The notes under the pieces: generated by a model
What the model saw: the letters and a program-made list of their open reading frames with translations, nothing else
What the model was told of the DNA's origin: nothing
Database searches by the model: none
Made by a program: the position numbers and the translations under genes
In this document: positions 1 to 25,735 of the stretch, piece after piece
How the letters are laid out: every line of letters begins with the position of its first letter
Numbering within the stretch: position 1 is the stretch's first letter
IMG/VR virus record: IMGVR_UViG_3300025132_000251
Coordinates: 1-26,041 of that record
Reading direction: 5' to 3' (one strand)
From: a virus
Length of the DNA stretch: 26,041 nt

Positions 1-1466
1 GGCTCATCCTCTTCATCGGAGTGCAGACTCAGGAATCCTCCCTGTCTGAAACGAAGCAGTGCTTGCGTGGAAGAGTCTACCAAATCATCATGTTCGCCTG
101 CTGGGAACGCAGCAAACTCATTCATGACTTCTTCGGCAAACCGTGTTTCAGGACACCAGACTGTGCCTGATGCGAATAGATCCGCAACTGCATTCACTCT
201 GGCTATCTTGTCATTACCACGGGACGGTGTGTATTCCTGCACCGGGATACCCATCGCTCTTAACTCGAATATTAAAGGCATTCCTGCCGCTTTCCCTTCC
301 ACAATAAATGCATCAGGTTGCATCTCCTTGTACATTTCAAAAGCGGTTTTCTTGAGTTCTGGGAACTCTAGCCGCTCTTTATATGCATCAAGCAAGATGA
401 TCTGGGGTTTAGTGACCCCCTCGTCATCGGGGTGGTAAAATACCCCCCATGTTGTGCAAGCAGAGTAGTCTGCCCGTTGTGTCTTGAGAAACGCTGTATC
501 CCAGGACTGTATGACAAAATCACATGGCGGAGGGCTGTCATATTCCCATATCTTCCACCACTCTTTCTTTACTAGTGCGCCTCCCTCGGAGGTCGGATTT
601 TGCTGATACTGTGCATTCCATTTGGAAGCAGGCAGTTCAGATTGAAGCGCAGATAACTCTGCGAGGCTCCAGAACTCAGGCCATAAAGGTTTCCCTGAAG
701 GCATGATTGCCGGAAATTCGATCACTTCCCACTCATCAGTTCCCTGTCTCTGGGCGGAAGCTTTAATAATCTTGCCCGTAAGGTCACGCATGTGCCATCG
801 GGTCATTACAATAACAATTGCCCCACCGGGCTGTAATCTCTGCCTGGGGCCAGATGTATACCAGTCATAGGTGCGGTCAAATACAGCCGGGTCTATGCTC
901 TGTCCTTCCTGTTCACTATGAGGGTCATCAATAATCAACAGGTCAGCACCTTTACCAGTCACTGCCCCGCCCACCCCGATAGCGAAGTATTCTCCTCCTG
1001 AACTTGTACTCCAGCGTCCTGCGGCCTTTGAATCAGCCCTTAACGCCAGACCGGGGAAAACCTTCTTGAAATCATCACTATCGACTAGGTTACGAACCTT
1101 TCTGCCAAAACCAACCGATAACTCAGCGGTGTGTGCCGTCTGTATGATCTTTTTATCTGGATATTGCCCAAGAAACCATGCCGGAAGTAAAAAGGAAGCA
1201 AATTCAGACTTGGTATGACGAGGCGGCATATTCACTATTAACCGCTTCAGTTCGCCTCTTGCTATCTTTTCAAAGGCTTCTGCCATAATCTTGTGATGTC
1301 TGCCCTCTATAAAGGCAGGCCACATATACTTGGCAAAATCAATAAATCCTGCCTGCGCTGCTTCCTTTCTCTGAGCTTCTTCTAATTGTCCAAGAAGCTT
1401 TAGAATCTCTTCCTGCTCATTAACAGGAAGGTCTTTAACATTTTCCAGAGTCAGACCATCAAGCAT
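1..1466 (-). CDS. terL: Terminase large subunit (TerL), C-terminus cut by window edge
   Basis: This is the packaging motor: an ATPase that pumps DNA into the prohead plus a nuclease that cuts concatemers. The reading frame is open for 488 codons from the chosen start to the window edge with no stop. Seen: a Walker A-like loop MPPRHTKS at about residues 80-87, Walker B LLIIDDP at 176-182, a coupling motif MTRWH at 221-225, then an RNase H-like nuclease with acidic residues in SWDTA (D323), VEGKAAG (E390) and GEHDDLVD (D460/D461). The ATG at 1466 has a GGAA about 7 nt upstream. An in-frame ATG at 1481 would add MWNIF but has no good ribosome-binding site, and a stop lies just before it. The array of palindromes begins 35 bp upstream. 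TerS lies upstream on the same strand after a long non-coding gap. The family call is very secure; the packaging type is not determined. Confidence 0.96.
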   Translation of the reverse strand, partial: MLDGLTLENVKDLPVNEQEEILKLLGQLEEAQRKEAAQAGFIDFAKYMWPAFIEGRHHKIMAEAFEKIARGELKRLIVNMPPRHTKSEFASFLLPAWFLGQYPDKKIIQTAHTAELSVGFGRKVRNLVDSDDFKKVFPGLALRADSKAAGRWSTSSGGEYFAIGVGGAVTGKGADLLIIDDPHSEQEGQSIDPAVFDRTYDWYTSGPRQRLQPGGAIVIVMTRWHMRDLTGKIIKASAQRQGTDEWEVIEFPAIMPSGKPLWPEFWSLAELSALQSELPASKWNAQYQQNPTSEGGALVKKEWWKIWEYDSPPPCDFVIQSWDTAFLKTQRADYSACTTWGVFYHPDDEGVTKPQIILLDAYKERLEFPELKKTAFEMYKEMQPDAFIVEGKAAGMPLIFELRAMGIPVQEYTPSRGNDKIARVNAVADLFASGTVWCPETRFAEEVMNEFAAFPAGEHDDLVDSSTQALLRFRQGGFLSLHSDEEDE

Positions 1467-1500
1467 AAATATGTTCCACATGAAACATTAAGCGCATCCC

Positions 1501-1563
1501 TTAAATAGTATTTAAGTTAAATATTATTTAGTTTAAATAGTATTTAGTCTAAATAATATTTAA
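1501..1563. repeat. Four tandem 15-bp palindromes in 16-bp register (iteron/operator array)
   Basis: Seen directly: units at 1501-1515, 1517-1531, 1533-1547 and 1549-1563, consensus YTAAATA-N-TATTTAR, each separated by one base, so the centres at 1508, 1524, 1540 and 1556 are exactly 16 bp apart. The first unit is a perfect dyad apart from its centre base; the others have one arm mismatch each. The array ends 34 bp from the TerL start codon. Regular spacing of dyads is typical of cooperative binding of a dimeric protein, either as origin iterons or as a repressor/activator operator. Which of these applies cannot be told from sequence. Confidence 0.85.
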
Positions 1564-1782: not shown

Positions 1783-1933
1783 AGGGGCTGGGACTCCACT
1801 AACTATTCTGAAATTTATTTGGGTGTTGGCAAGTTTACTTTGTTGTTTAGTTAATTTAAGGGTGTACCCCTATTTTTTGGTAATTATATGAGTGGATTAC
1901 TATGTATATATAACAGGTAACGTATGCGAGCTG

Positions 1934-2011: not shown

Positions 2012-2485
2012 TTAATGCAATTTGCCTGGTTCGTGCTGTATGTTGTTGATCTTGTTGATTTTATTTGTGAGCTCTTCAATGATTTCTTTAGAGCTTTTGC
2101 TATCATCTCTCTGCACTACTACGTTTTTATACAATGCCATTGTGTCACCAAGTAGTTTGGCGCTAGTTAACTGGGATTGCGTTAACTCTATCTCACCATC
2201 TATGCATTTTCTTAGCTTCTGGATGATTGCTTCTTTATGGCTTAGTAGAGCTATGCTATCTAGCCTACTAGTCTCTTCTTTTAACTTTTCAATTGTGGTT
2301 TTGATGTGGTCGTTATCCATCAACCGGCAAGCTTCTCTTCTGATTGTTGAATCTTTCATATTGTCGCAATTGTAGACTTCTAAATATGCATCGGTGAGAG
2401 TTTTCCCATGTCTCCCGACCAGTTCGCTAAATTTCAATTGCTTTGCTGTTAGGTTAACTTTGTTTTTTGTCATGTTCTTATCCAT
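2012..2485 (-). CDS. terS: Terminase small subunit (TerS)
   Basis: This is the DNA-recognition subunit that loads TerL at the packaging site. The 157-residue protein begins with the family pattern: LTAKQLKFSELV at about residues 12-23, then a DAYLEVYN segment, then RREACRLMDN and helices. This matches the helix-turn-helix N-terminus of small terminases (usual form: T-K-Q-x-x-F, AY, SA..LL.N..V). The middle and C-terminal parts are helical and charged, fitting oligomerisation. The start ATG has AGGA about 10 nt upstream; a second ATG five codons in is possible. It is divergent from the Gp88-like gene with a 162-bp shared upstream region. Length and position next to TerL agree with the call. 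Confidence 0.85.
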   Translation of the reverse strand: MDKNMTKNKVNLTAKQLKFSELVGRHGKTLTDAYLEVYNCDNMKDSTIRREACRLMDNDHIKTTIEKLKEETSRLDSIALLSHKEAIIQKLRKCIDGEIELTQSQLTSAKLLGDTMALYKNVVVQRDDSKSSKEIIEELTNKINKINNIQHEPGKLH

Positions 2486-4920: not shown

Positions 4921-5196
4921 ATGGATAAGTATATAGTAGTAGTGGTTCGCAAAAATGTAGATGGTAAAAGAGACTATCTGCAAGTGGACTCATGGTCTTG
5001 TGGTTCACCAATAATTGTCGATCAGGAGACTGCAAACAAAGCCATAGCTGAACTTAATGATAAAGCATCTGGGTCTAGAGGTTTTGAAGAAATCAAAAAT
5101 GCATTCGCAATTTATGTGGGCAATCTTTCATTTGCAGAAACCACTACCCTGACTCGATCAATTCAATCCGCACAACTTCAAAAAAGGACTGCGTAA
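4921..5196 (+). CDS. Hypothetical protein, 91 aa
   Basis: Not recognised. The frame is open upstream, but the start at 4921 is taken because GGGGAGAG sits 2-9 nt before it and the first residues (MDKYIVVVVRKNVDGKRDYL) look like a normal beta-strand start. The protein is a small alpha/beta domain without motifs. Its stop overlaps the ArdC start as TAATG, so both are probably co-translated. That coupling hints at a shared role with antirestriction, but this is context only. Confidence 0.75.
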   Translation: MDKYIVVVVRKNVDGKRDYLQVDSWSCGSPIIVDQETANKAIAELNDKASGSRGFEEIKNAFAIYVGNLSFAETTTLTRSIQSAQLQKRTA

Positions 5197-10224: not shown

Positions 10225-10512
10225 ATGCAGAGAATTGATAAACCTTTTCGTATAAACCTTCATGTTGTCCCTTCGACCTCTTTTCTTGAGGTTCCATTAG
10301 AGCTCTTCCCGGTCTTGGGTCTTGACGCAAAAGACTTCTCCACAATCCCATTGTGGGAGTCCATAAAGAATAATGATGCATGTTTTCTGGAAGAAACCGT
10401 TGAGATGCCTAAATTTTTAAATCGGTATCGTGAATATATGGAAGAGTCTCCCACAATTCATAAGACAATCCAGTACTTCAAGCTAGACAATACTTATTAT
10501 CCTCTTACTTAA
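10225..10512 (+). CDS. Hypothetical protein, 95 aa
   Basis: Not recognised. Start at 10225 with AAAGGAGAA six nt upstream; the frame is open back to 10168 but without a site. The protein (MQRIDKPFRINLHVVPSTSF...) has alternating strands and helices and no motif. It is the last gene of the plus-strand block and overlaps the convergent minus-strand gene tail-to-tail by 8 bp. No clear intrinsic terminator is visible between the two blocks. Confidence 0.7.
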   Translation: MQRIDKPFRINLHVVPSTSFLEVPLELFPVLGLDAKDFSTIPLWESIKNNDACFLEETVEMPKFLNRYREYMEESPTIHKTIQYFKLDNTYYPLT

Positions 10513-10972
10513 ATCGCTTCATCGGGTTTTTTCTGGGGGCATAAATATGCTGGGTGATGGCATCTAGTCCTTCACCTAGCAGTTTCATTTTACCCTCACT
10601 TTCTGATACATCTGTATTTTTGCAAACCACTTCCTCTACAAGTGAAGAATGTAATGCGGAGGTATTTTTTTCTATTACTTTCAAAAGATTTCCAAGTGCA
10701 AATATGCCCGTGGGAATTCTCTCTGGTATGCCACCGAATGTCTGATTATCCCAGTTCTGGGTCTTGGCATATATGCCTGATCCACTAGCATTCGCCATGA
10801 TAACCTCTGCGCTCTGGTGTTGGGATAGCGTTATCACTCCTTGGATAAGGTAGCGATCAATAATGGCTTGATCCATTACCTTGCTGCGAGAAACCTTGTT
10901 GTCTATCGTTTCAACAAGAATGGAATGCCGTTTATGGATCTCGTCAGTGCCTAAATCCGAATACTTTTCCAT
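10505..10972 (-). CDS. Unknown protein coupled to primase-helicase, 155 aa
   Basis: No family assigned. Its ATG directly follows the TAG of the primase-helicase, so both are in one transcript and probably co-translated. The helical segment DQAIIDRYLIQGVITLSQHQSAEVIM (residues 34-59) has the 'RY..G.IT..Q..A' pattern seen in some uncharacterised phage and alphaproteobacterial helical proteins. The C-terminal third (LLKVIEKNTSALHSSLVEEV and LLGEGLDAITQHIY) is helical and the very end is basic (PRKNPMKRFK). Possibilities are a transcription regulator or a replication accessory factor; both are inference from position. Confidence 0.75.
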   Translation of the reverse strand: MEKYSDLGTDEIHKRHSILVETIDNKVSRSKVMDQAIIDRYLIQGVITLSQHQSAEVIMANASGSGIYAKTQNWDNQTFGGIPERIPTGIFALGNLLKVIEKNTSALHSSLVEEVVCKNTDVSESEGKMKLLGEGLDAITQHIYAPRKNPMKRFK

Positions 10973-12727
10973 CTAGAAATCCTCATCAAAGTCATCGAGA
11001 TAATGCTTTCTTCCCTTATATCTGGAGCTAAATGATTCACCAGACTTCTCAAAATAACAACCTGTTCTCAGGTCGTACTCTAATTCAACCGTACCTTGCT
11101 GCCCTATGTGTTTGAATCTGCTTTTCCAGCAATGAATCTCCACAATATCATCATGCTTTCTATGCACAGTTAATCCTATTGCAGGCTTACTAAACCAGGA
11201 CATAGATCCACTGATCGAGGTTCCTTTGGGGACAGGATATGTGCCATCTTCTTTTAATGGCATCTTCGATGGGTGCGCTACAAACCAGACATGGATGTCA
11301 TTTGCAGAAGCAAAAGCCGTGATCTGGGTTAGCATCTTGGAGATGCTTTGATGCTCATTAGTTAGGTCATGGTCGATAAAATTGTAGGGGTCTATGATAA
11401 GACCTCTTATACCCATCCTGAGTATGGCATCTCTGGTTCTGGATAGAATAGATTCCATTGTGCTAAGTTCTCCAGACTTATTCTCTAGGAAAACAAAATG
11501 AGAATTTATAAAGGTCATTGCCTCATGTAATTCTTCTCTGTTCATCCTTGAATCAGGAGTGCCAAAAAAAGATTTTCCAATTATCTTCTCTGCGATTTTA
11601 CTGATATGCATGTGTGGTGGGTTTTCAAACGAGCAGATAGCAAACTTCATCGCATGTAACTGGGCAAGCCTGAGACAATAGAAGTCTAGCCATTCACTCT
11701 TTCCGCTATTCGGCATACCCGTGACAACAGTTAATTGTCCTGGTGCTGTAGTAAACAGGTTATCAACACACTCTATATCTATACCGAAACCTCTACCAGT
11801 GCCATGAACATAGATGTTTTCAACGTCATCCATGTATTCCATCGCACTATAGACCCCGGACAGGGGCATCGGAGATGCATTATCGATGATTTCTTTAAGA
11901 GTATCCGAACCATGCTCTGCAATAACGTCAGTTATGTCTTTTGTACCCTCTGGGAAGGCGATTTTCCAACACTTAGCCCTCCCAATTCGTCTTGCAAGCT
12001 CTTCCTGTAGGGCAACCCCTGCCTCATCGTTATCTGTCGCTAAGATGATTTTCTCTGCACTTTCTAACAAGTTCTTAGCCTCAAACACGTAAGAGAACTT
12101 AACATCCTCCTCTGGACTCATTTTCCTGTTAGATATCTTTGCTGGAGCGCCATTAGGGACACTTAATGCCTGTATTCCTACTGAAGCCAGTGCTACACAG
12201 TCTGCTTCACCCTCTACTATGTAAATAGTTTCTGGGGCTTCTGAGAGCTTCTCAAGCCCATAAAAGGTTCTGGCTGACCCATCCTGTGTAAAGTTCTTTG
12301 TATCCACTGCCCTCCACTTGATAGCCTCATCCTGGTAAACAAAACCAACAGCATCAACATTGCCCACACCATGAAAATACTTCTGACCTGTAACCATCGA
12401 TGGAAGATTGCCAATAGAATCAATCTTTATGCCACGATTAGAAAAGAATCTCTGAATTAATTCAGTATCCATGTTTAGTTTGGTGGGGATCTGTACAACC
12501 GGGGTTTGTTCAACAGGAGGAAAATCTTCAATATAATCCTCATAAAAAGGTTTTGATTCTATTGCTCCTTGAATCTCACAATGATGGCAGTAATAAAGTT
12601 TTACATCAGACTCTACGGTTATTGATAAGGTTTTTTGTCCCTTCTTCTTTCTGGTTTTGCCGCAATTAGGACACTCAACACGGCACGACTGGTTCTTTCT
12701 CGACACAAGTTCTTGTGCTTCATCCAT
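10973..12727 (-). CDS. Primase-helicase (T7 gp4/Twinkle-like)
   Basis: A bifunctional replication enzyme: RNA primer synthesis plus DnaB-type helicase. The zinc ribbon is C19/C22 (CPNC) with C47/C50 (CHHC). The TOPRIM domain has IYIVEGEADCVAL (E172, E174) and ILATDNDEAG (D232, D234). The RecA-like helicase shows Walker A GMPNSGKS at 337-344, the FAICSFENP strand at 362-370, Walker B LIIDPYNFID at 443-452, and a sensor strand HVWFVAHPSKM at 479-489. At 584 residues it is close to the T7 gp4 length. The start has AAAGGAGAGGGAG upstream. The intergenic region ahead of it carries the same AT palindromes found ahead of TerL. No phage DNA polymerase is seen nearby, which is unusual for a gp4-type enzyme unless the polymerase lies outside the window. 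Confidence 0.92.
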   Translation of the reverse strand: MDEAQELVSRKNQSCRVECPNCGKTRKKKGQKTLSITVESDVKLYYCHHCEIQGAIESKPFYEDYIEDFPPVEQTPVVQIPTKLNMDTELIQRFFSNRGIKIDSIGNLPSMVTGQKYFHGVGNVDAVGFVYQDEAIKWRAVDTKNFTQDGSARTFYGLEKLSEAPETIYIVEGEADCVALASVGIQALSVPNGAPAKISNRKMSPEEDVKFSYVFEAKNLLESAEKIILATDNDEAGVALQEELARRIGRAKCWKIAFPEGTKDITDVIAEHGSDTLKEIIDNASPMPLSGVYSAMEYMDDVENIYVHGTGRGFGIDIECVDNLFTTAPGQLTVVTGMPNSGKSEWLDFYCLRLAQLHAMKFAICSFENPPHMHISKIAEKIIGKSFFGTPDSRMNREELHEAMTFINSHFVFLENKSGELSTMESILSRTRDAILRMGIRGLIIDPYNFIDHDLTNEHQSISKMLTQITAFASANDIHVWFVAHPSKMPLKEDGTYPVPKGTSISGSMSWFSKPAIGLTVHRKHDDIVEIHCWKSRFKHIGQQGTVELEYDLRTGCYFEKSGESFSSRYKGRKHYLDDFDEDF

Positions 12728-12781: not shown

Positions 12782-12868
12782 TTAAATAAGTATTTAAATT
12801 GTTAAATTATTTATATTAATTACCTCTTTTTATTCATCTAAATACTATTTAGTTTAATAAGTATTTAA
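12782..12868. repeat. Second locus of AT palindromes
   Basis: TTAAATAAGTATTTAA (12782-12797, 7-bp arms with a two-base centre), CTAAATACTATTTAG (12838-12852, perfect arms), and TTTAATAAGTATTTAA (12853-12868, 15 of 16 identical to the first). The last two are centred about 16 bp apart, the same phase as at 1501-1563. A weaker match lies at about 12802-12814. On the minus strand both loci end in TATTTAAGGG on the side facing the gene they precede. Confidence 0.75.
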
Positions 12869-12970: not shown

Positions 12971-13261
12971 CTAGCGCCCCTCTCCTTCAACTCTCCCGAA
13001 GGAGGGGGTTTTTAAAGAATCAAGATGATTAATTATTTCTTTAGCCATCCTTTTCTGTTGAACATGTGATAATAGCATCAAGTCGAAAAGACTGTCACGC
13101 AACTCAGACGGATAATTTGCTCTGGCACAATGCTCGATAAATAAATCTCCATTGAAGTATGCAATAGCAAGTTGTTTTCTTTTTTCATGGCGATTAACAA
13201 GGTCTCTTATCGATCTTTTTATCATTGCCTGGTGCATATTTATTTCAATTTCATTATTCAT
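12971..13261 (-). CDS. Hypothetical helical basic protein, 96 aa
   Basis: Not recognised. Starts in an 8-nt overlap (ATGAATAA) with the end of rusA, so it is coupled to it. The product is helical and basic, with HEKRKQLAIAYFNGDLFIEHC (residues 25-45) and a helix DLMLLSHVQQKRMAKEIINHL. It ends in a short SFGRVEGEGR tail encoded by the hairpin region. A DNA-associated role would fit its company (RusA, primase-helicase), but no motif proves it. Confidence 0.7.
   Translation of the reverse strand: MNNEIEINMHQAMIKRSIRDLVNRHEKRKQLAIAYFNGDLFIEHCARANYPSELRDSLFDLMLLSHVQQKRMAKEIINHLDSLKTPSFGRVEGEGR
12982..13013 (+). terminator. Terminator-like hairpin on the plus strand
   Basis: CTCCTTC (12982-12988) pairs with GAAGGAG (12998-13004), extended by CCC/GGG through a T-G pair, and is followed by TTTTT (13009-13013). 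In the plus direction this is a good intrinsic terminator shape, but it lies inside the 3' end of a minus-strand gene and no plus-strand gene precedes it closely. It would end only a transcript started in the 12728-12970 region. Confidence 0.45.
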
Positions 13262-17964: not shown

Positions 17965-18219
17965 ATGAAACAAGACAAAGAAGATACAAGACAGAAGATA
18001 GAAGAACAAACTAAAGCGTTTTTAGAGAAAGGTGGAAAAATTGATTACGTTGAAGGATCAGAAAGAAACGCTGCCTACAATGTGACCTTTAAGCTTGGTG
18101 TAAAAAATGTTCCTGTTTATTCCAGAACCATATCCCCCCAAAGTGAATATTTAAAAAGGAGGTGGGCTAAAAAACAAGCTGAGTTAGAAAAAGCGAGGAG
18201 AGATTTTTCTGATGATTGA
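17965..18219 (+). CDS. Hypothetical small basic protein, 84 aa
   Basis: Not recognised with certainty. The segment KAFLEKGGKIDYVEGSER (residues 17-34) is of a type seen in small phage and bacterial proteins in which a helix is followed by 'F...GG.I..v'. The C-terminus is a basic helix (YLKRRWAKKQAELEKARR). The ribosome-binding site is weak; it starts 4 bp after the previous stop. A nucleic-acid or RNA-polymerase-associated role is possible but unproven. The last 8 nt overlap the next gene. Confidence 0.65.
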   Translation: MKQDKEDTRQKIEEQTKAFLEKGGKIDYVEGSERNAAYNVTFKLGVKNVPVYSRTISPQSEYLKRRWAKKQAELEKARRDFSDD

Positions 18220-18676: not shown

Positions 18677-19034
18677 TCTTCTTGCCTCCATCGTAGTAAA
18701 CAGCCAGACCTGAGTCCACTAAGAGCTGGCATATGTCCTGACCATCCGCTGTATAAGGTGTGCCAAGTATCCTGCCATACTTGCCTCTGGATTTTCCCTC
18801 GCCAAGAGAGGAGATGAGGAACTTCTCCCCCAGCAGGTCAGTCAGTAATTGCTTGGCTTTGAGACCCAAGGCTTTCTCCGCTAGATTCCTGGTTCTACTC
18901 TCTGGGGTGTCTATGTTGTAAAGACGAACACGTTGTTTATGCATCCAGACATTGAATCCCAAATCTATGTCACAGTCGAAAGTGTCTCCATCGATGATCT
19001 TAACCAAGGTAGCTTTGTATATGTATGGGTTCAT
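18660..19034 (-). CDS. Staphylococcal nuclease-like (SNase/TNase) protein
   Basis: A calcium-dependent nuclease fold (OB-fold SNase family). Seen: KIIDGDTFDCDIDLGF (12-27) with D15/D17, RVRLYNIDTPESR (35-47) with R37, D42 and E45, and GKYGR (84-88) supplying the second catalytic arginine. These correspond to the D-R-D-E-R active-site set. At 124 residues it is a minimal domain. No signal peptide is visible, so it would act in the cell or be packaged, not secreted by the usual route. It overlaps the giant gene in an ATGA junction, so it is made together with a virion-type protein. Possible roles: degrading host DNA or acting on DNA at entry; both inferred. Confidence 0.88.
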   Translation of the reverse strand: MNPYIYKATLVKIIDGDTFDCDIDLGFNVWMHKQRVRLYNIDTPESRTRNLAEKALGLKAKQLLTDLLGEKFLISSLGEGKSRGKYGRILGTPYTADGQDICQLLVDSGLAVYYDGGKKTKVWA

Positions 19035-22000
19035 TTGTCTATACCAATCTTTTCATCATACAGGTCATTGAAGTCTGACATCAATATGTTGATTTGCTCT
19101 TCAAGCTGCTCTTCCCTTTCTGGGGCAATAGTCATGGCGTAATTTACATTTTCTTTTGCTTTTGCTCTTACATTTCTAAGTTCTTTTCTTAATATTGAAA
19201 TACGTTTATCAATTGCTTTTCTTCTTTGATTTAATCTCAAATATTGCTCATTTTCATCATAATATTTTTTTCTTTCTGAATAAGGTTTTGTGTTAACTTC
19301 TGTTCTATAAAATGAATCTGTATTAATCAGCTTCTGTCTTCTTTCAAAATAGATGTTTCTATCGTTAAAATCATCTCCTTCAGCCAAATATTTTCTTAGA
19401 AATGGCGTTTGGTTAATATCAATCTCTCCTTCAGCAGCCCTTTCTACAGTGCCTACCGTTCTCATTGCAGTTGCTCCTGCTGCACCTGTAGTAAAATCAA
19501 CCATGTGATTTAATACATCTGGAGAAACATCAAGCGTAAAAAATCCCTTGTTTCCTTTTTCATCTCCTCCAGTAAACTCATATAAGGTTTCAGTAAACCG
19601 TCTTAATGCTTCTGGGGTGCTATTTAATTTAAGACTGCTTTGGGGTAGTTTAGGAGCATTATAAGAAGGAAAGTTCGTTGCTCTAATTGGCGCTCCAAAA
19701 AAGTTTTCATTAGACAAATAGTCTACCACTGGTGTGCCAACTGTAGGGGTAAATGTCTTGGCAAAAGCAGTTATTCCATCGTCTGATTCTGATGTTCCTA
19801 TTGGAGAGAAAGAACCCATAAATGTTTTTGTTACCAGAGCGGCTGCTTTAGGCTCAGATATATATCCTTTTTGCATGTCGTAAATAGCCATGCCTATAAC
19901 ATGAAATACGTTATATCCGTAAGGCAAAGGAATCATTACAAACTGGTCTCCTTCTGCCTTGTCTCCAAATATTAATGACTTGGGAATAAGCATATTCCTT
20001 GTCTTCTGAAAGTCTTTGAGTCCCTCACGGTACTCATCTTCATCCGACATCTCATCTGCAAGCATACTGGTCAGGTATCCCATGCCAATCATCGCAGACA
20101 TTAGTTTCTTTTTAGATCCAATACCTCTCATCAGGTTAGCTGTACCCTGTACAGAGGCATTGTAAAACAGATAAAGCGCATTCATGGTGTCTCCATTCAT
20201 GCCTTTTCTGTTAAAGTTGACTGTCAGGTTTTTTGCTAATGATGCAGCTCTGGCTATAGCTTCTGGCCTGTTAACCCCTTCCTGTATAAACCTGTCTCTT
20301 GCCTCAACAAACGTAGCAAACCTTACTCCATTCTCAACAGCAGAGTTCACATCATCAACAAAGTTAATTGTAGATTTAAATCGTCTTTTTACTGACCCCG
20401 TAAAGGAACCATTGTTCATTGAGATAAGATTTTTTATATCGGCAATCTGTTCTTCTGGGTTTCTTGAATGAAACCAGTCTGTCTTTGCACCTGATCTAAT
20501 GTATTCATCAAAGTTGCTTTGATCTTCTTTGGAAAGAGTGCTTCCTCGAATACCTCGATAAAACTTTCTGACAGACCCAGGGGTATTTTTTACAATTCGT
20601 GTTATTGATGCCTTAACAGGAGCCGCGCCACCCTCCATCTTTTTCTCTGCATGAAGGTTTGCCAGTGCTGTTTGCAAGTCTCTTGGAAAGTTACCCAACA
20701 TAAATTCAGGGTTAAGACTGGTATTCATAAATGAAAGATATCGGTTAAAGCTTCCTAGCATCTGTATTATTCTGGTTGAGCTTCCTGCATCAAGATTAAG
20801 CAACGCTCTTTCAAGATCCTTATCTTTAAACTCTATAAAAAATTGTTCTCCATCCACCTTGGCTCCAAACAAGCTGCCCCTGCTTTGCTGCGGAACCTGC
20901 TTTTGACTGATCCTTTTTACCCAATTCTTTTTGTCTATCTTGTCGGAGATATCTGTAGCCCTTTCTCCATACTTGCCATCGATAGGGTCATCTCCAATGT
21001 AGGTATAAAACGAATCAAAATATGCCTGGTACTTGGGATTTTTAGGATCAATAAGCTCCCATGTATCTTCTGCTGGATGCTTTTTAATTAAATTAACTAA
21101 ATTAATCCCCACTTCTTTATTCTTAACTCCCCTGACAATCATCATTTCTCTGTCATGGAATATAGAACCAAGGGGCGGAAGTGCTTGGTGTCCCATTCCT
21201 TTTGCTCTTTCAACAAGCCTTCCTGCTTCACTTCTTGTGCCGCCCGATCCGGCAGCTCCAAACTTTTGCAGGTCACTAGAGAACTCATCCTCTATTGCGT
21301 GACCTTTTAAAGGAACGTAGTACTTATAAAAAGTTTTAAATATTTTGGCATCTATTTCTGAAAACAAACCATTTTCTCTTCCCTCATCAATGGTTTTCTT
21401 GGTTATGGCATCTACTTTGGAAGAAAGTCCTAATAATACCTTGGCTCTGTCGTTGCCACCCTTCCATTCTCCTGTACGCCTATTCCATTCCATGTCATAG
21501 TTTTTCTTCATAAAGCCTCTGACAAAGTTGTCCGTCATGGCTATGCCTTTACGAATTTCTCCTGCTCCTGCGTCTTGCTTTTCTGGATTAACTCTTCGTA
21601 TCTGCTCATTTCTTTCCATAGCATGTCTGAGCATCAGGAACTCATTAAATTCTTTTTCACTAACACCTTTTTCAATCATTTCCCTGATTAAGGGCATTTT
21701 TTCGTTATCTTCAAGATCCTTGATTTTTCCAGAAACAATACCGGGTATGCGCTCATCACCCTTGTATGGCGATTCTAGGGCTGTTAGAGGTTCCAGTCCC
21801 ATACTACGTCTAGTTCTGTTAATCGCCTCCTCGACCTGTTTAAGCCCCAGAAGCTTGTCTTGTACCTGATATATAAACCTGTCCCACTTCTGCTGGTATC
21901 CATTACGACTAGGAGACTCAAATGAGGCCGCAGGTGTTGATGGTGTGTTTACTTCTGTTCTGTTGATGGCAGGATCAGCGATGGTTTCCTGCCTAACAGC

Positions 22001-25000
22001 AGTTTCTATCTGGCTTGTTTCATCTTTTTGTATGGCGCTTTCTACTGCTTGTGTCTGGAGGGACACGTTGTTTTCTGCTTTTTCCCTGTCACTTTCGAGC
22101 GCAGCCATAGCCATAGGCTGTTCAAGCTTCCTTCCCTCCATTCTTGCCTGAACTGCTTCTACATGTCTGTAAGTGGGGATATCAATGTAAGCTTCTGTGA
22201 TCCTTGATACTTCATTAAGAACCGTATCCATATCAGCCGGAAGACCAAGCAGCTTTCTAATAGATTCTATAAATTCTGACCAGGCTGTTCCTTTCTTATA
22301 CTGAACGCTTTCCATAAATCTTTGCGTTGCAGGATTGGTCATTCCCATAGTAATTAATTCATGTGGTGAACTTAGTGCATACTCAATGTTAAAAATATCT
22401 GTTGATGAGTAATCTTTAAATTCTCCAGCATCTCTTCTCTTTCTGTACTCACTAACTAAATGATTATTTACTTGAGCTAAATCCTTAGTAAGAATATTAA
22501 ATTCTGTTCCCTCTGAAAGCTTGCCCCGACTGCCAAAGTCCAGAGAGCGTGATGTAACTGCGTGAACAAATTCATGTAATATTGTATCTTCAAGATCGTC
22601 TTTTAAATATGTCCTTGGTAAATCTGCCCCTGCTACATGAATTTCAGAATACCTAAATAGCTCTTCAGAGGTTTTTACTTTTCCAGTAGTGAGAAGCGAT
22701 TCCGCAGCAGCCACATCTTCAGGTATTTTTCTTGAAAATGGGTAATAAGTATAAAACCCTCCAGTGTCAGTTCTTTCTACCAACCTAGATGAGCTGCCGG
22801 GATGAACTACTTGAAAATCAAAAACAAAGCCGTTCTCTTCTAACTCTTTTATTTTTGCTGCTACTTTATTTGCAATTATACGTCTTGGTTTGTTTTTACC
22901 ATTTTTAGCAATATATTCTATCGCCTCAAGTGCTGTTTTTCCTTCAACTGCTTTTTCAATATCTGTTATTTCCCTAGTAAGTCCTTTTGTTGCTTGTTTA
23001 GTTATTTTTGCATTTGGATTTTGACTAAACAAATAAGACTTGTATGAATCAGCGGTTTTAGCATCCTTTACAAGAACTAATCCGCCAACCTGTATTGCCT
23101 CGCTGCCACTAACAACAGGCCGCATTGTATTTCTGTCATAGAAATAACTGTGCCTAAACGGATCCATTCCTACCTGCGTCCAGTTGCCCCCTTCTTTTCC
23201 AGAAAGAATGTTTTTTACTCTCTGACCAAGGGCTTTTGCGTCATAATTTGAGTCATACTTGCCTCGCATGGTAGCTATCGTTGCTTTATTTATTACGCCA
23301 GAAGCAATTTGTGCTGCCGCTTTTCTGTCCATACCAAAACGAGGATCTTTTACGGCTACCGCAGATTCGTAGGCTACAGGTGTTCCTGCTTTATAAGCTA
23401 AATCTGTGCCTTTGTTAATCTTGTGGGCTGGAGGAGGTCTGTGAATTGAAACAACCCACTGATCAAATGATGTATAAGCAGGAATATCTAGCCTAAATTG
23501 ATAATCATCTATTGAAATTCCTTCATTATCCAACCCATCTTGGCGGATAATTTCATCAGCTAGACCATACTTTTCTGCTTTTGGATTAGGTTTTTCTCTT
23601 ACTTGACCAGGTTGAGTGTGAGCGTGTGCAAGCGCATTTTTTGCTCTAGTAGGATCCGCAGGCATTGGAGCTGTTTCTGTTGTGTAAGGAACCACTGGTC
23701 TGTAGATGTCTACTATTTCATTATATTCTTCTATCGTTATTTCATTTTTAATGCGTTGTTTTACCGCATCTAATAATTCTGTTGTTCGACCCATTTGGGC
23801 TTGATCCGAAAGCTCTACTCCAGACTCTTTTAAGCTGTTACGAATTGACATATATTCATCAATTGTTATTTCCCCGTCTAAAAATGCATAAGCAGCTCTC
23901 TCAGCTTCTCGATTTCTTCTTATAGGTTCAATTCTTTTCTTTTTTGCTTTAGCATCTTTTCTCTTTGCTCTTGACGGAAGAACCTTGTCTCCCCCTTCCA
24001 GACCAACTACAGAAGGCGTGTCTTCAATTGCATTTATTTCCGCCATTCTTGTGTTAATGTCATCTTTAATAGTGTCATCATCAACTGTTTGTCTTGATTC
24101 AAGAGTTACAGGAGCAACCTCTCCTCTTATTTCAGCAAGCGCCTGTCTTTTTGCTTCTTGCTCTTCTTGTATCTGTTCTGGTGTTTTAGCTGCCTGTATC
24201 TCTGCATTAATCTCATCTATAACTCTTGTATGCTCAGACAGCTCTCCGCCTAACTTGCGTATTTCCTTGTCATCTCCATCTTGTATAGCTTCTTTCAGTT
24301 TTGATCTTTTTATTGCTTCTTGTTTTGCATGAAACTTGAGTTCATCTTCTCTTTCAGATGAAAGAATAGTTGGCCCATACTCATCATCGTCAGGCGTTTT
24401 CCCTTCTTCTTCATCTCTGGTTTTTTCAGCTTCACGATCAGCTTCCAATGCCCCACGCAGATTTATTTGCGCTTCGAGCGCATCAAAATCATTCGTTGCT
24501 TTAACAATATCTTGAGTGGGTTTTGTGTAGCGGAAAAGATCCTCATCAACAACCTGATAAGTTCTTATGGATTCGCCAGTGGAGGGGTCAGTTTCTCTAT
24601 TAACAAGAATAGTTAATTTTTTGGGGGTTCTTCCTTCAAGGGAAGGTTCTTTTGCTTCTGTTTGTTCAAGCCTGCCTTTTGCTTTTTTAACTTTTTGTTT
24701 TGTTCTTTCAGCTTTTGTAATTGCATCAAAGGCTACTGTTTCTTCTGCAAAGCCAATTTCTTCTGGATCTGCCTCTGCTAATGTCTCACCAAGTCCTTCA
24801 AACTCACCAGGATCAATAGCATCTTCTTCTTTGACAATGTCTCTGGTTTTAGGCTGACCTGTTAAGGCATCGTAGCCGCCTCTTGCTGTGCCACCAACAA
24901 GTCCTGCTGCAATGGCTACATCTCGATAACCTTTAATTGCTTCTTCGTCATCAATAGCAAGACCTGCTTGGTATCGATCTATAATCTCCTGTCCTACTTC

Positions 25001-25735
25001 AGTAGGAACCTCAGTGATTACACCTTTGGCAGCGCCTTTAACTCCTCTGGTAAGCAACGTGCCAGCCACCTGCGCTCCTGCTGCTCCACCAAAAGGCAAT
25101 AACAATCTGTCAACTATGAAGTCTAAGGAGGCAGAAGGAATTGCAGACAAGAGTGCCGTCCCTTCATCTATCTCTGTTCTAAGACCTCTGTCAATTGCTT
25201 CTTTTTGAGATTCTCTATGCTGCCCATAGAATACTGGAAGATAACCGATAGCAGCCCCAGCAACAGCTCCTAAAGGCCCAGCAAGAGCGCCACCTGCTGT
25301 AGCTACACCAAGACTTCCTGCAAGCTGTGGAACCTGTTGACCAAGCTGCTCTTTATAAAACTTCCATGCCTCTCCAAAAGAGGGATCTTCAGCAAGCTCA
25401 TCAAAAGATGTCATTCCTGCTGAGTTTTCAGCTATCTCTTTTTCGTTGTTTTCTACAACCTCTCGTCCATATTCTGTAAGAGAGTCAATTCCTGTTGCTT
25501 CTCCTATACCCTCTACAGCAGAACCTAACTGTTGCTGAAGGACATCAACACCTAAACCGATAGCATCAAAGAATCCGCCTTCTTCGTCTTCATCTTCTAA
25601 TGTTTCTTCTCTTGCAAATAGTTCTCGCTGGTACTCTGAGAAGGCAAAATCAATAATATCTGATTCTAAAGCTCCATCTGCATGAGAAACGTCTACAACT
25701 GATCCATCAGGACGGGAAACACTTGTTATGGGCAT
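19031..25735 (-). CDS. Giant internal virion / polyvalent protein, 2234 aa
   Basis: Probably packaged and ejected with the genome, as proposed for large phage polyvalent proteins. An acidic N-terminus (1-55) is followed by glycine/alanine-zipper segments at 138-168 and about 214-240, which could insert in or span a membrane. A long charged, coiled-coil-rich region lies at about 300-720, including two short copies of EITI(D/E)EY. HEFVH at 1054-1058, with SSPHELITMGMTNPATQRFM roughly 60 residues later, forms a zincin-like peptidase domain. A large C-terminal region around 1675 has NPEFMLGNFPRD, typical of the LPD38 polyvalent-associated domain. The end is a coiled coil. No frameshifts in 6.7 kb. 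The exact virion location and the domain names are from memory of the families. Confidence 0.8.
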   Translation of the reverse strand: MPITSVSRPDGSVVDVSHADGALESDIIDFAFSEYQRELFAREETLEDEDEEGGFFDAIGLGVDVLQQQLGSAVEGIGEATGIDSLTEYGREVVENNEKEIAENSAGMTSFDELAEDPSFGEAWKFYKEQLGQQVPQLAGSLGVATAGGALAGPLGAVAGAAIGYLPVFYGQHRESQKEAIDRGLRTEIDEGTALLSAIPSASLDFIVDRLLLPFGGAAGAQVAGTLLTRGVKGAAKGVITEVPTEVGQEIIDRYQAGLAIDDEEAIKGYRDVAIAAGLVGGTARGGYDALTGQPKTRDIVKEEDAIDPGEFEGLGETLAEADPEEIGFAEETVAFDAITKAERTKQKVKKAKGRLEQTEAKEPSLEGRTPKKLTILVNRETDPSTGESIRTYQVVDEDLFRYTKPTQDIVKATNDFDALEAQINLRGALEADREAEKTRDEEEGKTPDDDEYGPTILSSEREDELKFHAKQEAIKRSKLKEAIQDGDDKEIRKLGGELSEHTRVIDEINAEIQAAKTPEQIQEEQEAKRQALAEIRGEVAPVTLESRQTVDDDTIKDDINTRMAEINAIEDTPSVVGLEGGDKVLPSRAKRKDAKAKKKRIEPIRRNREAERAAYAFLDGEITIDEYMSIRNSLKESGVELSDQAQMGRTTELLDAVKQRIKNEITIEEYNEIVDIYRPVVPYTTETAPMPADPTRAKNALAHAHTQPGQVREKPNPKAEKYGLADEIIRQDGLDNEGISIDDYQFRLDIPAYTSFDQWVVSIHRPPPAHKINKGTDLAYKAGTPVAYESAVAVKDPRFGMDRKAAAQIASGVINKATIATMRGKYDSNYDAKALGQRVKNILSGKEGGNWTQVGMDPFRHSYFYDRNTMRPVVSGSEAIQVGGLVLVKDAKTADSYKSYLFSQNPNAKITKQATKGLTREITDIEKAVEGKTALEAIEYIAKNGKNKPRRIIANKVAAKIKELEENGFVFDFQVVHPGSSSRLVERTDTGGFYTYYPFSRKIPEDVAAAESLLTTGKVKTSEELFRYSEIHVAGADLPRTYLKDDLEDTILHEFVHAVTSRSLDFGSRGKLSEGTEFNILTKDLAQVNNHLVSEYRKRRDAGEFKDYSSTDIFNIEYALSSPHELITMGMTNPATQRFMESVQYKKGTAWSEFIESIRKLLGLPADMDTVLNEVSRITEAYIDIPTYRHVEAVQARMEGRKLEQPMAMAALESDREKAENNVSLQTQAVESAIQKDETSQIETAVRQETIADPAINRTEVNTPSTPAASFESPSRNGYQQKWDRFIYQVQDKLLGLKQVEEAINRTRRSMGLEPLTALESPYKGDERIPGIVSGKIKDLEDNEKMPLIREMIEKGVSEKEFNEFLMLRHAMERNEQIRRVNPEKQDAGAGEIRKGIAMTDNFVRGFMKKNYDMEWNRRTGEWKGGNDRAKVLLGLSSKVDAITKKTIDEGRENGLFSEIDAKIFKTFYKYYVPLKGHAIEDEFSSDLQKFGAAGSGGTRSEAGRLVERAKGMGHQALPPLGSIFHDREMMIVRGVKNKEVGINLVNLIKKHPAEDTWELIDPKNPKYQAYFDSFYTYIGDDPIDGKYGERATDISDKIDKKNWVKRISQKQVPQQSRGSLFGAKVDGEQFFIEFKDKDLERALLNLDAGSSTRIIQMLGSFNRYLSFMNTSLNPEFMLGNFPRDLQTALANLHAEKKMEGGAAPVKASITRIVKNTPGSVRKFYRGIRGSTLSKEDQSNFDEYIRSGAKTDWFHSRNPEEQIADIKNLISMNNGSFTGSVKRRFKSTINFVDDVNSAVENGVRFATFVEARDRFIQEGVNRPEAIARAASLAKNLTVNFNRKGMNGDTMNALYLFYNASVQGTANLMRGIGSKKKLMSAMIGMGYLTSMLADEMSDEDEYREGLKDFQKTRNMLIPKSLIFGDKAEGDQFVMIPLPYGYNVFHVIGMAIYDMQKGYISEPKAAALVTKTFMGSFSPIGTSESDDGITAFAKTFTPTVGTPVVDYLSNENFFGAPIRATNFPSYNAPKLPQSSLKLNSTPEALRRFTETLYEFTGGDEKGNKGFFTLDVSPDVLNHMVDFTTGAAGATAMRTVGTVERAAEGEIDINQTPFLRKYLAEGDDFNDRNIYFERRQKLINTDSFYRTEVNTKPYSERKKYYDENEQYLRLNQRRKAIDKRISILRKELRNVRAKAKENVNYAMTIAPEREEQLEEQINILMSDFNDLYDEKIGIDK

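Follow-up and report, generated by a model that had tools for sequence, protein, structure and literature searches.

The operator sets oR and oL of phage lambda each comprise three 17-bp operators that overlap the early promoters and are bound by a dimeric repressor. Other phage proteins, such as Ogr of P2 and Q of lambda and 21, act at a late promoter or its leader and time the late genes in this way; we know of no long arrays of sites for regulators of this type. The iterons of plasmid and phage origins are mostly direct repeats with a pitch of about two helical turns (20-22 bp). In L5-type mycobacteriophages, the stoperators are asymmetric 13-bp sites for which binding by a monomer is predicted, and more than 20 of them are spread over the genome; the sites of the repressor occur at promoters and within short stretches between genes and have been proposed to stop initiation as well as elongation (PMC9283540).

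The stretch analyzed here, referred to as the window, comprises the 26,041 bases of the IMG/VR virus record IMGVR_UViG_3300025132_000251 and contains arrays of palindromes in front of two leftward genes, terL and a primase-helicase gene. We presume, with a probability of roughly 70%, that these arrays are sets of adjacent operators for a dimeric DNA-binding protein encoded by the phage, and that they serve two operons, one for replication and one for late functions. By analogy, the system appears to work as operator sets for phage regulators do, in a variant in which the same word stands at two operons. With lambda oR/oL it shares adjacent, odd-length palindromic operators with a free center at two transcription units under one (here putative) protein; unlike lambda, it has up to about six units, lies in late and replication leaders and keeps a fixed pitch of 15-17 bp, and no HTH_3 (CI/Cro-like) match above the cut-off is found in the window and nine relatives. 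The proposed timing of late genes recalls P2 Ogr and Q, whereas the fold resemblance of our candidate protein to Q21 is non-significant (E 5.5). As in iterons, putative protein-binding sites are repeated regularly in AT-rich DNA near replication genes, but here they are palindromic, lie in gene leaders and have a pitch of 1.5 turns. The likeness to the L5 operators and stoperators consists in the location of the sites at promoter or leader regions; the sites described here differ in being 15-bp palindromes, in their tandem arrangement and in their restriction to two operons. An identification as L5-type stoperators was rejected, since the units are symmetric palindromes of 13-15 bp and not asymmetric 13-bp sites. 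In the literature on pelagiphages, on late promoters of marine phages and on 1.5-turn operators, we found no description of such an element.

The palindromic array in the terL leader

At positions 1501-1563, four perfect 13-bp palindromes with the word TAAATANTATTTA follow each other in steps of exactly 16 bp. The units, all listed on the minus strand, are TTAAATAGTATTTAA (unit 1, 1501-1515, closest to terL), TTAAATATTATTTAG (unit 2, 1517-1531, 16 bp from unit 1), TTAAATAGTATTTAG (unit 3, 1533-1547) and CTAAATAATATTTAA (unit 4, 1549-1563); together they form the distal cluster of the leader. A preliminary description of this DNA had reported four near-perfect 15-bp dyads in 16-bp register, and the centers it gave, 1508, 1524, 1540 and 1556, are confirmed. 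Its label is fair, because the inner 13 bp (TAAATA-N-TATTTA) are a perfect palindrome in all four units, while the outermost Y..R pair is complementary in unit 1 only, a perfect odd palindrome over its whole length. The array could in principle be an artefact of composition or of repeat slippage in AT-rich DNA, as the array of the window consists almost entirely of A+T and close relatives differ in their number of units (4 to about 6). However, dinucleotide shuffles never reproduced it: in 5,000 shuffles of the region between terS and terL (1482-2011) and 20,000 of 1496-1575, no run of equally spaced palindromes was longer than 2, versus 4 observed. Furthermore, GC-containing arrays at an unchanged pitch and place are present in relatives, so that an artefact is extremely improbable. 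The earlier claim that such precision exceeds chance, for which shuffles of equal composition had been named as the deciding comparison, is thus borne out.

The gene adjoining the array, previously called terL, is matched as such by phrog_38 (3-1481, minus strand; E 2.8e-107). The array lies between it and a terS-like gene (2012-2485, minus strand; phrog_51, E 9.5e-9), both of which are read leftward. The reported distance of 34 bp to the terL start applies to the ATG at 1466 and falls to 19 bp for the start of the longest open reading frame at 1481; because homologues align from about residue 5, the start at 1466 is favored.

Toward terL, the leader presents a dyad (1703-1688), a -10-like element (1676-1667), a proximal unit, a hairpin, the four-unit array, a parS-like palindrome and the likely start at 1466, all on the minus strand. 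The dyad (TTGACTTTTATGTCAA) has the form TTGAC-N-GTCAA, and 33 of 80 loci have TTGAC/T-N5..10-GTCAA upstream of terL. The extended -10-like element (ATGCTAAACT) has TGnTATAAT-like counterparts at the same position in relatives, and a promoter-like core precedes the array in nearly all lineages inspected. From this conservation of position and form we infer a terL promoter, which is absent from the output of a consensus promoter scan of the window. Directly downstream of the core, at 1628-1642, lies the fifth unit (CTAAATATTATTTAA on the plus strand), a perfect 13-bp palindrome that forms the proximal cluster and is retained in the close relatives L001-L004. The array at 1501-1563 makes up just the distal part of a larger element in a leader that is presumably transcribed.

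Between the two clusters, the sequence CCTTTT-TGAG-AAAAGG is predicted to form a small hairpin (1568-1583), and the counterparts at the same place in relatives have changed stems and TTGAT-like loops. This raises the question of whether the element is functional as RNA, with a fold of both clusters and the central hairpin in the leaders of terL and primase-helicase that controls translation or termination. In the terL leaders of the B group, the hairpin stem is kept via paired changes (CCC/GGG, TCC/GGA, CTC/GAG) around a TTGAT-like loop, and in both the window and L006 there is partial complementarity between the proximal cluster and the distal one. Yet the units are short palindromes with free centers, for which only weak RNA hairpins are expected; the units on both sides of the primase leaders of L138 and L148 are direct copies and not inverted ones; an Rfam search returned no credible match; and the central hairpin may be a separate component. 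On balance, a function as RNA is unlikely.

Three lineages have a parS-like palindrome close upstream of the terL start: the window (TGTTTCATGTGGAACA, 1472-1487, minus strand), L006 and L007 (TGTTCCACGTGGAACA, at 4985), and L009 (at 2856). The copy of the window is one base off what we take to be the parS consensus, and a link to host ParB is speculative. Upstream of the leader, at 1761-1797, the minus strand reads GGAGTCCCAGCCCC followed by an A/T tract. A similar combination of GTCCC and A-tract occurs upstream of terL in the distant, array-less HTVC027P, 023Pt_psg01 and DSL-LC04, and the element is possibly part of the packaging site. An element resembling ATATACATAGTAATCC (1893-1909, minus strand), also upstream of the terL leader, is conserved in many relatives.

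The second site, in front of the primase-helicase gene

Outside the terL leader, the word of the window recurs only at 12782-12797 (TTAAATAAGTATTTAA, with a 2-bp center) and at 12838-12852 (CTAAATACTATTTAG, a perfect 15-bp palindrome), accompanied by a degenerate unit at 12854-12868 (TTAATAAGTATTTAA) that lies 16 bp from the preceding one. All three are on the minus strand, in the leader of the primase-helicase gene (10973-12727, minus strand; phrog_239, E 7.7e-70). When the 9-mers of the late leader were counted over whole records, by far the strongest cluster elsewhere was the primase leader in the window as well as in G028 and G031; in the latter two, CTAG-N7-CTAG 15-mers are confined to the leader downstream of terS and to the primase leader. 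G036 has the array in its terL leader, and in the same whole-record count a second cluster is absent. The control of late genes proposed in the preliminary description holds as far as the link to terL is concerned; because the same word fronts the primase-helicase gene, it is too narrow on its own. For the same reason, the marking of two operons by one word, the finding is more interesting than first stated.

A profile search with the primase-helicase provided 80 loci. At an identity of at least 70%, nearly all primase leaders contain arrays of CTAGGACTGTCCTAG-like words, and so do many at 50-55%; the leaders of a set with 54-60% identity (L153, L154, L159, L161) have no array. Averaged over the primase leaders of 34 distinct relatives, the z-score of the self-lag peaks at 16, with 17 as the next value. 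No promoter was identified in the primase leader. In L112, L117, L132 and L136, a strong G+C hairpin after an A run is located just upstream of the primase-leader arrays; upstream of many such arrays, this combination is terminator-like on the opposite strand.

The presence of one array beside a primase-helicase gene makes it necessary to consider iterons, with an initiator that binds two origins, one by this gene and the other between terS and terL. The regular palindromic arrays in AT-rich DNA, the A-tract DNA upstream of the terL leader and the minimum of the window's cumulative GC skew at 1624 are consistent with such a function. The preliminary description had considered the position before terL an unusual site for a replication origin; given the second cluster, the role of an initiator is less easily dismissed. 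However, the terL array has a conserved promoter-like core upstream of it and is immediately followed by a late gene. In the full-size relatives G028, G031 and G036, the extremes of GC skew are away from the arrays and the skew follows the gene strand, by which GC skew is confounded as an origin test. We regard two origins as unlikely.

Conserved place and pitch, changing words

Searches for relatives of terL yielded 80 loci. In L001-L004 (terL identity 98-99%), word and place are kept and the distal array consists of 4 to about 6 units, the count that had been proposed as a check on the array. Nearly every unit of the five close genomes is an odd palindrome with invariant 6-bp arms and a free center. 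Relatives at about 83-87% identity possess other words at the same place: CCTGATCAGGTAATTA-type words are found in L006, L009, L010 and L012, and ACGT-type palindromes in the B group. The self-lag of the leader is strongest at 16 in the window, L001-L004, L006, L009, L010, L012, L014, L027, L029, L033 and L043, and at 15 in L028, L036, L037, L045, L065, L074 and L078, with unrelated words. At 10.5 bp per turn, 1.5 turns correspond to 15.75 bp, to which both values are close. The terL leaders of some others, e.g. L005, L015, L018 and L024, display no clear self-lag of 15-16. Among cultured or named relatives, inspection by eye revealed no such array before terL in HTVC027P, HTVC023P, 023Pt_psg01, DSL-LC04 and MinM2, nor before the primase of MinM2. 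According to these comparisons, the place of the array and its pitch (15-17 bp, a lag found in many relatives) are conserved while the recognized word changes. The preliminary description had held that a loss of the 16-bp phase in related phages would point to a compositional signal; position and pitch persist even where the words have changed completely.

The word also changes in concert at the two sites. A genome's own word is common to both leaders in 14 of the 16 relatives with sequence covering both, the exceptions being G036, where a second site is missing, and L186, whose two leaders have few 8-mers in common. The primase and terL leaders of the window share 21 8-mers, compared with at most 9 between its leader and that of any other genome. 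Over 17 genomes, own-genome sharing amounts to 260 8-mers versus a permuted mean of 91 (reached in 0 of 20,000 permutations); when each lineage is represented by a single genome, sharing as high as that observed arises in 2 of 20,000 permutations. We relied on this comparison of own versus other leaders because random control windows sometimes gave high counts in an earlier test of word sharing. In the loci that extend 9-11.6 kb downstream of the primase gene (L114, L136, L137, L140, L144, L174-L176, L188-L191, L194), the late leader usually contains the word of the primase leader. L194 (PBMQ01000020.1) is a 61-kb phage contig of this group that is filed in a Euryarchaeota MAG; it was probably misbinned and is not taken as evidence of the host.

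Since the same word occurs twice in a genome and differs between genomes, we infer a single trans-acting specificity. The small terminase subunit comes to mind as its bearer, with the array as the TerS recognition site for packaging: the array sits between terS and terL, and the terS-like proteins have an N-terminal region of the kind that forms a helix-turn-helix in known TerS proteins. However, the same word also fronts the primase-helicase gene, away from the packaging locus, and its specificity does not follow TerS. L006 and L012 share words yet differ in their TerS N-termini, and the same applies to L036 and the B group, while distant relatives retain the A-tract/GTCCC element near terL without any array. 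Because the TerS sequence groups mismatch the word groups, TerS was rejected as the array-binding protein, and a packaging site at the array is very unlikely.

Proposed regulation and candidate binding protein

The odd length of the palindromes, their fixed arms and their free center point to a symmetric DNA-binding dimer. In the operator system that we favor, each 15-bp palindrome would bind one dimer, and the pitch of 15-17 bp (about 1.5 helical turns) would place neighboring dimers on opposite faces of the DNA, with several packed together. Each genome would possess two operator sets, one in the late-gene leader of terL and one in the primase-helicase leader; in the terL set, the small hairpin would separate a single unit near the promoter from the array farther away. 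One regulator could thus time the replication genes together with the late and packaging genes. Both sets lie in leaders, that of terL behind the -10-like core, where control of the downstream genes is plausible. Because the sites are downstream of the putative terL promoter, the likeliest action is a block of promoter escape or early elongation that would be lifted later in infection; activation or antitermination might take the place of repression. Of the dimeric regulator or initiator suggested in the preliminary description, the sites of a symmetric protein and the 1.5-turn pitch, which is kept in relatives with changed words, have stood up, and an initiator is the less likely choice. A constant pitch and position with a changing word is what would be expected if regulator and sites evolve together. 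With this reading, an odd repeat becomes a testable two-operon regulon in a group of uncultured marine phages.

The best candidate for the array-binding regulator is the product of the next gene after primase-helicase (10505-10972, minus strand; 155 aa), a tentative choice that we consider rather more likely to be wrong than right. The gene was found in all 10 genomes searched. Its model, with a mean pLDDT of only 77, has a fold like that of DUF6456 phage proteins: in BFVD it matches predicted phage proteins at E 4.7e-7 to 8.3e-4, including one named DUF6456 (E 8.3e-4, probability 1.00, TM 0.55/0.43). The model also resembles sigma-factor-like proteins, without significance. The Pfam profile of DUF6456 matched none of 25 members of the candidate protein, and nothing significant was obtained in the PDB, where the best relevant structure was Q21. 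Pfam assigned no credible family to either gene flanking primase-helicase, nor did PHROGs to the downstream one. It is conceivable, though doubtful, that one fast-evolving regulator with the DUF6456 fold recognizes the lineage-specific palindromes in both leaders and acts on the transcribing polymerase together with the central hairpin. The short list of candidates for a switch between replication and late genes, led by one gene, could yield a first function for a DUF6456-like phage protein.

As general regulator families, HTH_3, HTH_17 and RHH_1 were rejected, with matches above the cut-off in 0, 1 and 0 of 10 genomes, respectively. The gene before the primase leader (12971-13261) encodes, according to its model, a small helical protein of 96 aa, for which no fold matches and nothing significant in the PDB were found. 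Elsewhere in the window, a small protein encoded on the plus strand (17965-18219) carries a SutA RNA-polymerase-binding domain (Pfam PF20661, E 2.6e-10, above the cut-off) and is a possible phage transcription factor. A single open reading frame of 2,234 aa on the minus strand (19031-25735) occupies a quarter of the record.
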